A DNA stretch of 64,000 nt. It comes from Lacibacter sp. H375. GTDB lineage: Bacteria > Bacteroidota > Bacteroidia > Chitinophagales > Chitinophagaceae. The stretch lies in NCBI RefSeq assembly GCF_037892425.1, contig NZ_JBBKTT010000001.1, forward strand, positions 4,278,001-4,342,000, given 5' to 3'. The translations under genes were made by a program, and so were the position numbers. Under the pieces are notes generated by a model that did not search any database, was not told the DNA's origin, and saw only the letters and a list, made by a program, of their open reading frames with translations. This document shows, piece by piece, positions 4,067 to 26,788 of this stretch (positions are counted from its first letter, which is position 1; each line of letters begins with the position of its first letter).

Positions 4067-4074
4067 TATCTTTG
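4067..4074 (+). promoter_or_regulatory. -7 box of the SRP RNA gene
   Basis: TATCTTTG is an exact TAnnTTTG match and ends 4 bases before the predicted 5' end of the SRP RNA (4079). This fits initiation right at the RNA end. The -33 region falls in the word array 4022-4058 and shows no clear TTTG. Confidence 0.7.
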
Positions 4075-4078
4075 CGCC

Positions 4079-4173
4079 GGCAGGTCTTGCACGACCAGCT
4101 CCTGCTGAACTCCCCCAGGGTGGGAACGCAGCAAGGGTAAGCGGTTGTAGCGGTGCGATGTAAGTAACCTGCC
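4079..4173 (+). ncRNA. ffs: Signal recognition particle RNA, small bacterial type (4.5S)
   Basis: About 95 bases. The ends pair, GGCAGGT (4079-4085) with ACCTGCC (4167-4173). The apical part carries the SRP signature, with CCAGGGTGGGAACGCAGCAAGG around 4115-4136 matching the conserved helix 8 region that binds Ffh. A T-rich stretch follows at 4175-4187 and should end transcription. The RNA forms the signal recognition particle with Ffh for co-translational membrane targeting. The next gene (start 4251) is separate. Confidence 0.93.
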
Positions 4174-4250
4174 ATTTTTTTCTTTTCCTGTTTGAAGATG
4201 CCCCTAACAAACGAATATTTTTTCATCTTCAAAACAACCAAACTTTACGC

Positions 4251-11557: not shown

Positions 11558-12274
11558 ATGGAATCGGTAAAAAATAAAAACGTATTGATCGTTGGTGCAA
11601 CAGGCGGTATTGGCAGCAGAGTGGCAAAATTATTGGCAGGCAGCGGAGCCAATTTATTTCTGGCAGGTCGTAACATCGAAAAACTGGCAGCGTTGGCACA
11701 GGAGTTAAATCCTCCTTCATCCAAAACATTGGCGCTCGACATCAGTAAACCATCTGAAGTTGCAGTGTTGAAAGAACAGTTCTTTGCAAACTACCCGACC
11801 ATTGATGTATTGGTAAATGCAGCAGGGCTGGGTATTATCAAATCATCTGATACATTAACCGAAGAAGAGTTCATGCAGACGATTCATACAAACTTGTATG
11901 CACCTTTCCTATTGGTGAAAGCATTTCTACCTCACATGAAAGAAACAAAGAAAGGATTGATCATTAATATCCCCGGTATTCTTGGTAAAGTACCCATGTT
12001 GGGTGCAGCTGCTTACAGTGCATCGAAGTATGGACTGAACGGCATGATGCAAAGCATTCGTGAAGAAGTGAAGCGTACTGAAATACGTATTACCAATTTA
12101 TTTCTTGGTGGCGTTGATACGCCATTCTGGGATACTATTGATCTGCGTGTACAACGTGATAAAATGGTGATGGCCGAAGAAGCAGCAAAAGCCATTTGGT
12201 TTTTATGCCAGCAACCAACCAGTGCAGTGGTAAGTGAAATGGTGGTGCAACCATTCAATCATCAGGCAATATAA
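11558..12274 (+). CDS. Short-chain dehydrogenase/reductase (classical SDR)
   Basis: 238 residues, classical SDR length. The cofactor motif VGATGGIGSRVA is at about residues 12-23, NAAG near 88-91 and YSASKYG near 152-158 (catalytic Tyr and Lys). NLFLGGVDTPFWD lies in the substrate lid. It probably uses NADP(H), because GRNIEK follows the second strand. The substrate is unknown. It is the last plus-strand gene of the photolyase island, about 50 bases after the preceding gene, and ends inside a strong bidirectional terminator. Confidence 0.88.
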   Translation: MESVKNKNVLIVGATGGIGSRVAKLLAGSGANLFLAGRNIEKLAALAQELNPPSSKTLALDISKPSEVAVLKEQFFANYPTIDVLVNAAGLGIIKSSDTLTEEEFMQTIHTNLYAPFLLVKAFLPHMKETKKGLIINIPGILGKVPMLGAAAYSASKYGLNGMMQSIREEVKRTEIRITNLFLGGVDTPFWDTIDLRVQRDKMVMAEEAAKAIWFLCQQPTSAVVSEMVVQPFNHQAI

Positions 12275-12310
12275 ACAAGAACGGCTGCCAATTGGCAGCC
12301 GTTCTTGTTT
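12273..12310. terminator. Bidirectional terminator, perfect 38-bp palindrome
   Basis: AAACAAGAACGGCTGCCAA (12273-12291) is exactly complementary to the following 19 bases. GC-rich core, A-rich 5' and T-rich 3' flanks serve both strands. It separates the SDR gene from the convergent SRPBCC gene and starts within the SDR stop codon. Confidence 0.92.
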
Positions 12311-12329
12311 TATAGAAACGGTTTTTCGT

Positions 12330-12836
12330 TTATGCTGCTTTATGAAATTCCACACTGTTCGTTTGTGCTGTTGGCCATTTACCAAACATTTCTTCTACAA
12401 CTTTGATCCTGTATTGAAAAATTTTCTTCAGCTGTGCTTTCACAAATAATGTATTAGCGATGTTGCCTAAAAAGCCAAGTGGGTTGCGGTAATGTACAAT
12501 ATCCGTCATCTCCACACCACCATCAATGATTTTAAAATGATGTTGATGATGCCACAGCTGGTAGGGACCAAAACGTTGTTCATCTACAAAAAACTCCATG
12601 TCCTTTACATGAGTGATCTCTGTCATCCAGTAAACAGGAATTCCAAGTACAGGCTTCACTTTGTATTCGATGATCTGTCCCGGATACATTTTTGCACCGT
12701 GATGTTTCGAAAGAATTTTGAAACCAAGATCATTTGGTGTGATCTTTTGCAGATTTGCCGGATTGGAAAAGAATTCCCAGGCCGTTTCTATATCAACAGG
12801 AATCTGTTGTACAGTTTTTAACGAGAACGTTGCCAT
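12330..12836 (-). CDS. SRPBCC family protein
   Basis: 168 residues. The START/SRPBCC helix-grip fold is indicated by FSLKTVQQIPVDIETAWEFFSNPANLQKITP (about residues 4-34) and the closing helix KKIFQYRIKVVEEMFG. The block FVDEQRFGPYQLWHHQHHFK (about 87-106) is typical of the ligand-binding Bacteroidota group related to cell-division inhibitor SulA-like/DUF proteins. The ligand is unknown. It follows the 97-residue gene by 3 bases, so the two share an operon facing the photolyase island, in which such SRPBCC genes commonly occur. Confidence 0.85.
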   Translation of the reverse strand: MATFSLKTVQQIPVDIETAWEFFSNPANLQKITPNDLGFKILSKHHGAKMYPGQIIEYKVKPVLGIPVYWMTEITHVKDMEFFVDEQRFGPYQLWHHQHHFKIIDGGVEMTDIVHYRNPLGFLGNIANTLFVKAQLKKIFQYRIKVVEEMFGKWPTAQTNSVEFHKAA

Positions 12837-13418: not shown

Positions 13419-13427
13419 AATAAAAAA

Positions 13428-13450
13428 CCCGCCTTCAGTTGAAGTGCGGG
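13428..13450 (-). terminator. Duplicated copy of the tRNA-Leu terminator
   Basis: CCCGCCTTC-agtt-GAAGTGCGGG with A and T tracts on both sides. It differs from the copy at 13781-13803 at four positions, and the flanking tracts are identical. In its present place it would end transcription of the GIY-YIG gene. Confidence 0.75.
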
Positions 13451-13462
13451 TAAAAAAAATTG

Positions 13463-13530
13463 TGCGCACGAAAGGAATCCCCGCCTGACCGAGTCATTCG
13501 GGCAGGGAACCTTTACATCCTTGCGAATGG
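13463..13530 (-). pseudogene. Fragment of tRNA-Leu: 3' half, interrupted by a 27-base insert
   Basis: Positions 13463-13479 plus 13507-13530 match the T arm, variable arm and 3' acceptor strand of the intact tRNA-Leu (13816-13856) with two differences (GCGCAC for GCCCAC, TTTAC for TTCAC). The 5' half, including D arm and anticodon, is missing. The T-arm region is broken by a 27-base hairpin insert. The fragment also encodes the last residues of the GIY-YIG protein. It cannot give a working tRNA. Confidence 0.85.
13480..13506. repeat. 27-base palindromic insert in the tRNA fragment
   Basis: CCTGACCGA (13484-13492) and TCGGGCAGG (13498-13506) form a hairpin with one mismatch around a 5-base loop. 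The insert is absent at the matching point of the intact tRNA (between 13832 and 13833). It supplies the last three codons and the TGA stop of the GIY-YIG gene. It looks like a small mobile palindrome. Confidence 0.65.
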
Positions 13531-13763
13531 AAATAATTCGTCAACCAACGTTTACCTGCTGCTGATTTCAAGTACTTTTCCCTTAATCTCGCAGAAGCCC
13601 AATCAGGATGTGTTTCGATGTAAATAATTTTCCAGGGGCGATGTCCTTTTGTAAATCTGTTTTTCCCGGCATTGTGCTCAACTAATCTATGTTCAACATC
13701 TTTTGCCATGCCGGTATACCATGTATTATCAGTTAAACTTTCTATTACGTATACAACAATCAT
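13494..13763 (-). CDS. GIY-YIG nuclease domain protein (UPF0213 type), fused to a tRNA remnant
   Basis: 89 residues. The GIY-YIG core is read as VYVIES (residues 4-9) and WYTGMAKDVEHRLVEHNAG (15-33). The arginine helix is at R26 and the catalytic glutamate in ARLREKYLKSAAGKRWL (about residues 58-74). Standalone proteins of this size are structure-specific or homing-type endonucleases, or have no known target. It lies downstream of tRNA-Leu on the same strand, directly after the tRNA terminator. Residues 79-86 (HSQGCKGS) are encoded by the duplicated tRNA-Leu fragment, and residues 87-89 plus the stop by the 27-base insert. The gene therefore sits between direct repeats, as in an integrated element. 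Confidence 0.85.
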   Translation of the reverse strand: MIVVYVIESLTDNTWYTGMAKDVEHRLVEHNAGKNRFTKGHRPWKIIYIETHPDWASARLREKYLKSAAGKRWLTNYFHSQGCKGSLPE

Positions 13764-13780
13764 GTTGTAAAAATAAAAAA

Positions 13781-13803
13781 CCCGCCTTCAAACGAAGAGC
13801 GGG
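13781..13803. terminator. Terminator of tRNA-Leu
   Basis: CCCGCCTTC-aaac-GAAGAGCGGG with AAAAAA before and GGGTAAAAAAAA after on the plus strand, so it works for minus-strand transcripts ending at the tRNA and may work both ways. It separates the tRNA from the GIY-YIG gene. Confidence 0.85.
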
Positions 13804-13815
13804 TAAAAAAAATTG

Positions 13816-13899
13816 TGCCCACGAAAGGAATCGAACCTTCACATCCTTGCGAATGGCAGATTTTGAGTCTGCTGCGTCTACCAATTCCGCCACATGGGC
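13816..13899 (-). tRNA. tRNA-Leu (anticodon CAA)
   Basis: 84 bases, read on the complement. Acceptor strands GCCCATG and CGTGGGC pair (one G-T) with discriminator A. The D arm is GCGGAATTGGTAGACGC, the anticodon stem GCAGA/TCTGC has loop CTCAAAA (anticodon CAA), a long class II variable arm CATTCGCAAGGATG follows, and the T loop contains GTTCGATTC. CCA is not encoded. It is intact and should be functional, decoding UUG. Confidence 0.95.
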
Positions 13900-26759: not shown

Positions 26760-26788
26760 GGGTCGGGCCGCTCAAAGCGGCCTGACCC
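26760..26788 (-). terminator. Hairpin between the vWA and T9SS cargo genes
   Basis: GGGTC-GGGCCGC-TCAAA-GCGGCC-TGACCC is a 29-base near-perfect hairpin without a T-run on the minus strand. It may attenuate transcription or protect the 3' end of the upstream vWA message. The core GGCCGC/GCGGCC is shared with the terminator at 25603-25631. Confidence 0.55.

Follow-up and report, generated by a model that had tools for sequence, protein, structure and literature searches.

A GIY-YIG nuclease gene between an intact tRNA-Leu gene and its displaced 3' half in Lacibacter: a probable minimal homing-type element of tRNA and other conserved genes

The occurrence of one small GIY-YIG gene between an intact tRNA-Leu gene and a displaced copy of its 3' end in Lacibacter sp. 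H375 raises the question of what brought the three together. An intact tRNA with a displaced 3' fragment is the classic footprint of an integrase, which would make the nuclease gene mere cargo. The first-pass annotation of the 64,000-nucleotide stretch analysed here (NZ_JBBKTT010000001.1, positions 4,278,001 to 4,342,000; the window) proposed instead a minimal tRNA-targeting element lacking a recombinase, a reading now supported by recurrence at many tRNAs, by tRNA-encoded protein tails and by empty sites. The locus probably belongs to a family of minimal homing-type mobile elements, each made of a single gene, that parasitize tRNA and other conserved genes and restore their target.

Table 1. 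Features of the tRNA-Leu locus, with positions counted along the window
Feature	Position	Strand	Remark
tRNA-Leu(CAA), intact	13815..13899	-	the one Leu(CAA) gene in a genome with 44 tRNAs
T-loop point of the intact tRNA-Leu between GGTTC and GATTCC, counterpart of the insertion point	13832..13833	-	within GTTCGATTC
Terminator-like hairpin of the leading tRNA, ACCCGC..GCGGGT and T run	13774..13804	-	duplicated together with the 3' half of the tRNA
GIY-YIG nuclease gene for 89 aa, UPF0213/SLX1-like, with no more than the catalytic domain	13494..13763	-	
Displaced piece spanning tRNA positions 44-67, from the variable arm to the T-loop	13507..13530	-	translated as nuclease residues 79-86
27-nt palindrome inside the T-loop of the displaced copy	13480..13506	-	contains the stop codon of the ORF
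Displaced tRNA 3' end, tRNA positions 68-85	13462..13479	-	alignment with the empty site of G013 starts here and continues downstream
Second terminator copy, then host flank	13419..13451	-	

On the minus strand, tRNA-Leu(CAA) is followed by its terminator, the GIY-YIG gene and the displaced tRNA 3' half with a second terminator (Table 1). The repeat finder resolves the duplication into a part of 61 nt (13419-13479 versus 13772-13832, 92%, spacing 353) and one of 24 nt (13507-13530 versus 13833-13856, 96%, spacing 326), which sum to 85 bases, differing at 6 and interrupted by a 27-base insert at 13480-13506, exactly the repeat, 353 bp apart, that had been described before. The 61-nt part gives E = 1.1e-18 in a BLAST search against the whole genome, and no third copy is found there at E <= 0.01; a chance repeat is ruled out by the E value and the repeat finder result. 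The description of an intact tRNA-Leu with the GIY-YIG gene alone between the copies is likewise borne out by the tRNA call, the ORF list and PF01541: the sole ORF is the GIY-YIG gene, and neither a second gene nor a site-specific recombinase is encoded between the copies, as judged from the ORFs and the sequence read. The claim that residues 79-86 are tRNA-derived holds for residues 79-85 and two bases of codon 86, which come from the displaced tRNA piece, and fails for the remainder of that codon, which is encoded by the 27-nt insert together with residues 87-89 and the stop codon. Within 600 bp on each side of the 44 tRNAs of the genome, displaced tRNA fragments are present at both of the two GIY-YIG-bearing tRNAs, and the other 42 yield a single 17-nt T-arm match, probably due to chance. 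No intron RNA lies around the ORF, since at gathering thresholds Rfam returns nothing at this locus except the tRNA, the one other match in the window being an SRP RNA, and an intron was ruled out on this search; a phage, plasmid or genomic-island origin was rejected on the single gene between the copies and the vehicle searches given below.

The window protein matches PF01541 with 58.6 bits (curated cut-off 22.6). The residues Y5, Y16, G18, R26, H30 and E62, which have a catalytic role in the GIY-YIG fold, are invariant in 20 sequences including the window protein, the first Y being nearly but not fully invariant in a broader set of 29. A profile search against the PDB places UPF0213 (1.9e-15) and SLX1 (7e-9) ahead of I-TevI (0.003), and structural ranking of the predicted fold (pLDDT 93.6) agrees with this order; by profile and predicted fold over the domain the enzyme is UPF0213/SLX1-like, with 1zg2, 1ywl, 7cq2 and 6seh as the nearest nucleases, and we know of no mobile member of the UPF0213/SLX1 group. 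I-TevI and the Seg proteins carry a separate DNA-binding domain after the nuclease domain; such a domain is absent from the window protein, which consists of 89 aa in one compact predicted fold, and sequence-specific cutting is not obvious because nothing extends beyond the catalytic fold. The model TIGR01453 (group I intron endonuclease) does not match the window protein and matches two of six family proteins, below cut-off only. The PADLOC defence models give no match for the window protein and weak partial matches for three of six family proteins, on which result a known anti-phage defence system was rejected. None of five family proteins has a match in PHROGs, and naming through NCBIfam or PHROGs yielded nothing or weak matches. 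As for a mobile vehicle, related genes were found in 0 plasmids and 0 IMG/VR contigs, and the only phage relatives belong to ten Rhizobium phages at 37-39% identity.

The orthologous site was located in relatives with an AlaDH-family gene as the anchor. The empty tRNA-Leu site that the first-pass annotation had suggested looking for is present in G001, G009, G013 and G010, and also in the more distant G006 and G007, all of them without a second tRNA copy. In G013, the host flank aligns with a score of 421 from the displaced copy onward versus 182.5 from the leading tRNA onward; the flank fits the displaced copy and not the leading tRNA, and therefore the inserted stretch lies within the tRNA. 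Incomplete copies occur as well: at this site G004 has a GIY gene cut short, behind which the tRNA end and terminator are repeated in worn form, and a duplicated, palindrome-marked tRNA piece without a full GIY gene is found in G003 (L010), G012 (L015/L081) and G008 (L018, a case read by eye, where the script reported only terminator-like matches). GIY-less relatives keeping the duplicated fragment had been named beforehand as evidence against the proposal; they exist in these three genomes, and at least one of them looks like a decayed element. The displaced tRNA pieces of G012 form a tandem array, and the spacer of L015 encodes MKDWVKNF, resembling the GIY C-terminus ..GKRWLTNYF; because of this resemblance we read L015 as a deletion derivative or decayed element, and L010 and L018 could, more weakly, be deletion derivatives too. 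In all, a full GIY gene is absent beside tRNA fragments at L010, L015, L018, L193 and L196.

A second element in the same genome consists of a GIY-YIG gene at C1:4433782 behind the single tRNA-Arg(TCT), preceded by a 5' and followed by a 3' fragment of the tRNA. In the genus this site is fixed by a neighbouring ORF, which we take to be a uracil-DNA glycosylase gene. It lacks a second tRNA copy in G013, G002, G001, G009, G008 and G006, and is occupied in G000, G011 and G012; in G012 four 5' fragments lie upstream. In G003 (97% in the neighbouring protein) the 5' remnant is kept, the GIY gene and the 3' remnant are missing, and tRNA-Arg runs directly into the host terminator that follows the 3' fragment in G000. 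A solo 3' fragment lies upstream of the tRNA in G010, and G005 (L204) has a single tRNA, but in the other orientation relative to the neighbour; no tRNA was found at this site in L203 and L205. At L192, L199, L200 and L074 the displaced tRNA-Arg(TCT) has its anticodon stem exchanged for TCCCGA/TCGGGA, the loop bases TTCTAA being kept in several of them.

Matches in the protein search occur in 13 of 14 genomes of the genus and in 41 of the 60 genomes of a Chitinophagaceae sample, a family in which a search for GIY-YIG genes directly downstream of tRNAs had been suggested as a check. All places listed by the family search supplied 103 distinct GIY domains, 77 of them with an intact tRNA within 500 bp and always on the same strand (77/77), both counts taking in split pseudogene pieces and tandem copies and so not standing for independent events; the tRNA is upstream in 59 and downstream in 18. 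Given at least 500 bp of context, proximity to a tRNA characterizes 46 of 50 high-scoring domains (>=85) versus 4 of 12 low-scoring ones (<65). With such context on both sides, the tRNA is more than 500 bp away in 14 of 74 domains, three of these being additional copies within tRNA arrays. A displaced fragment of the same tRNA is present at 54 of 63 loci versus 2.2 with mismatched tRNAs, and in 45 of the 54 the GIY gene stands between this fragment and the tRNA. For named loci, the fetched stretch contains a tRNA in 23 of 33. In a phylum sample, 62 of 99 genomes have matches at E <= 1e-10. From the matches listed there, 65 loci were considered (the best-scoring matches plus 40 picked by hand rather than a random draw; L207, L227, L231 and L239 were left out because they repeat other loci of the set), and 51 of them have a tRNA or tmRNA at no more than 500 bp, in all 51 cases on the same strand; the other 14 comprise two RNase P loci, two tRNA-fragment arrays, one without a GIY gene found, at least three contig ends, and others. 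For some related GIY genes there is no recognised RNA gene at the locus, and a low-threshold Rfam search of 15 GIY loci, selected because no tRNA had been recognised there, gave nothing or weak matches.

The protein lineages follow the target. On a tree with open forks built from 61 GIY domains over 72 columns (one protein per locus and tRNA, leaving out domains of <181 bases and stop-anticodon calls), on which 22 anticodons are represented, the anticodon label requires 31 changes versus 49.6 when shuffled and the amino-acid label 21 versus 42.3, neither being reached in 200 shuffles, and the genome label requires 53 versus 52.6 (139/200 as low). As far as this tree resolves, the GIY proteins are grouped by tRNA isotype, not by genome. 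The window protein is placed among tRNA-Glu elements, in a clade also found at Gln, Leu(CAG) and Leu(CAA) tRNAs, and most members read carry a palindrome at the same T-loop point in either orientation; the exceptions are L140, with the palindrome in the anticodon loop and the GIY gene upstream, L139, cut off after the palindrome start, and L141, where no intact tRNA is in view. The C-terminal tails differ, each being translated from its own tRNA (Glu, Leu, Arg), and a comparison proposed in the first-pass annotation, for tails derived from different tRNAs, thus has a positive outcome.

Occupied and empty alleles are known at cognate sites in tRNA-Leu, tRNA-Arg(TCT) and the RNase P RNA, and movement most likely proceeds by nuclease-induced gene conversion. 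The host tRNA can be divided into two halves, A and B, that meet in a loop, and the occupied allele reads A-(B'-terminator-GIY-YIG-a'-palindrome)-B-terminator. The half B', presumably brought by the element (in the window, 13832-13815 as the putative replacement), would complete the interrupted tRNA, so that a single-copy tRNA stays functional, the host 3' half B being pushed downstream behind the palindrome and the short tRNA piece a', which forms the end of the nuclease gene. The nuclease would cut an unoccupied tRNA gene in a loop (the T-loop in the window clade), and host recombination would repair the break from the occupied allele, using the halves A and B as homology and copying in the whole cassette; elements may also have moved horizontally. 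The same tRNA homologies would permit tandem multiplication of units and their collapse to GIY-less remnants. The leading tRNA keeps an uninterrupted T-loop, which leaves the self-protection of the donor unexplained and counts against the homing reading. The lack of any domain beyond the catalytic fold, the tRNA fragments without a full GIY gene, the exceptions in the window clade, the GIY genes away from recognised RNA genes, the inserts of other clades in other loops and the empty result of the plasmid and IMG/VR searches weigh against it as well. If the homing reading is true, these very small mobile elements persist in essential single-copy RNA genes by replacing the part that they disrupt; they would be a source of the tRNA fragments and tandem arrays of tRNAs seen in genomes, and would offer dozens of natural nuclease/target-site pairs for the study of GIY-YIG specificity.

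The nearest precedent is SegB, a free-standing GIY-YIG homing endonuclease of the T4/T6 tRNA region which resembles the present family in its position next to tRNAs of many isotypes, cleaves within tRNA genes, makes tandem tRNA-segB repeats and shows microhomology of the tRNA 5' end with the segB 3' end (PMC13096335). SegB is phage-borne, and the sections of its account considered here describe no replacement half-tRNA, displaced remnant or palindrome (PMC13096335); the elements here, in contrast, are chromosomal, consist of the catalytic domain only and are without PHROGs counterparts, and would extend the SegB-tRNA link from phages to chromosomes. The SegB motif RAWTSGAAC occurs at 23 of 83 cleavage sites (PMC13096335); it is the reverse complement of GTTCSAWTY, present in the window T-loop as GTTCGATTC, the insertion place. 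By our reading the motif corresponds to the T-loop, and the window insertion point appears to fit the preference of SegB. GTTCSAWTY is found in 23 of the 44 tRNAs of the genome, and therefore the motif does not single out Leu. Among the papers listed by one open literature library, no account of a chromosomal GIY-YIG/tRNA family was found, the SegB paper alone being directly relevant by these listings.

A possible, though less probable, variant is that an SLX1-like nuclease cuts the hairpins or cruciforms of structured genes rather than a sequence, the isotype being set only by the homology of the cassette. Besides the affinity of the enzyme to UPF0213 and SLX1 rather than to I-TevI, by profile and by fold, the position of the inserts in displaced tRNAs agrees with it. 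Of 49 distinct inserts, 38 fall in the D, anticodon or T loops, with an expected fraction of 0.335 (binomial tail 3e-10), and 30 of 38 do so after collapsing to one per locus and region (1e-8), figures inflated by shared ancestry, as is the finding that 29 of 43 inserts of <=40 nt have a better fold than 95% of the shuffled versions of themselves. The insert list comes from a script with fixed limits that misses inserts plain to the eye, e.g. L048 and L051; in several of the remaining non-loop inserts a whole arm is replaced, and clades other than that of the window have theirs in the D-loop or anticodon loop. SLX1 contains additional domains and has SLX4 as its partner. It is reported to be inactive without SLX4 (PMC8287910), and no partner is seen here, which argues against cutting of this kind, as do the protein-gene targets described below, which are conserved motifs and not obviously hairpins. 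Inverted repeats of >=12 nt flank the GIY gene in 27 of 235 contexts versus 0.65 with mismatched upstream and downstream sides, and therefore most tRNA-type elements are without such arms.

The palindromes may be independent dispersed repeats that invade loops. The window palindrome was considered as a high-copy repeat of its own genome and rejected as such, occurring once at <=3 mismatches, and CCTGCCTGCCGGCAGGCAGG (<=2 mismatches) is dispersed at 12-48 places in five of 14 genomes and at 0-4 in the other nine. A more speculative extension, for which we see about one chance in four, is an undescribed class of hairpin-borne elements in which an SLX1-like nuclease inserts its own gene, and in trans moves short GIY-less palindromes, into hairpin loops within structured genes (the D, anticodon and T loops of tRNAs, P3 of RNase P, the tmRNA neighbourhood) and some conserved protein motifs, the palindromes in displaced tRNAs, and perhaps the dispersed palindromic repeats found in Bacteroidota generally, being the non-autonomous form. 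At L136 a palindrome is nested in the loop of another, itself within a tRNA remnant, and at L144 a doubled palindrome lies in the T-loop of a remnant.

Palindromes in tRNA loops, tandem arrays and targets other than tRNA (tmRNA, RNase P RNA and protein genes) go beyond what the first-pass annotation had expected. GIY-YIG genes lie downstream of tmRNA at 146 bp (L238) and 136 bp (L266), and each unit at L238 includes a copy of the terminator region that follows tmRNA. At L244, L233, L280-L282 and L315 a GIY-YIG ORF is located inside a hairpin of the RNase P RNA, which we take to be P3, between inverted repeats (24 and 19 nt in L244 and L233), again as expected from structure-guided cutting. Within one genus, with one RNase P gene in each genome, three of eight genomes are filled and five empty at this site; L315 belongs to another genus, and its contig starts inside the insert. 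The intervening sequences of 23S rRNA are likewise hairpin extensions of an essential RNA without an intron, and the RNase P variant differs from them in its host RNA and in its GIY-YIG ORF; it raises the question of how an essential ribozyme can function when one of its helices contains a protein gene. The search with the RNase P variant listed 18 places, of which seven (L316-L322) hold neither tRNA nor RNase P. In L316-L321 related GIY-YIG genes interrupt or adjoin conserved motifs of protein genes, presumably, from these motifs, a tyrosine recombinase, an rmlB-like and a RAYT-like gene, and several of these loci have arms such as TCCCGTTAGAAAT / ATTTCTAACGGGA. An arm similar to this type occurs in a Ca. 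Ryanbacteria locus (L147).

It is unlikely that the GIY gene is cargo and that the duplications were made by a tyrosine integrase or by RecA-driven tRNA recombination, although the footprint mentioned at the outset and the GIY-less tRNA fragments count in favour of this. Like the element here, genomic islands and other integrase elements that enter tRNA genes rebuild the tRNA and leave its original 3' end behind as a displaced fragment; the present elements differ from them in lacking an integrase, in their size of about 0.35 kb, in a terminator within the copied part and in inserts in D, anticodon and T loops. Against the cargo reading, no other gene lies between the copies at the loci whose sequence was read, the window genome has clear tRNA fragments only where a GIY gene is present, the inserts occupy three different loops, and GIY genes also occur in RNase P RNA and protein genes.

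Tandem arrays with a period of 330-380 bp and up to eight GIY units, found in several genomes, could also speak for a host-beneficial module in which tRNA genes are amplified or renewed by the nuclease, whose retention would serve tRNA dosage; a phage tRNA-Tyr amplified against Septu by SegB is a precedent (PMC13096335). In the arrays read, the further tRNA copies are broken (5' strand missing or palindrome-bearing; ARAGORN still calls some tRNAs), so functional dosage should not rise, and presence within one genus is patchy; we regard this benefit as improbable. L235 has eight GIY units at a period of about 365 bp, and L240 is an array of many short tRNA-like remnants, each with a palindrome; neither has an intact tRNA in view. 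Ordinary duplication of a tRNA beside an unrelated small gene, since tRNA genes do duplicate, can practically be dismissed, being refuted by the recurrence of the arrangement, with its invariable strand, same-tRNA fragments and clean filled/empty pairs.

Three further observations concern the window outside this locus. Rfam identifies a Bacteroidales small SRP RNA at 4071-4178 (95.1 bits). A GC-rich palindrome lies at 26760-26788, with a 12-bp stem, one mismatch and a 3-nt loop, the longer-stemmed of the two GC-rich palindromes printed by the script. At 12203-12449 the peptide KQERLPIGSRSC is common to ORFs on both strands, which points to a long palindrome at the end of the gene stopping at 12274.
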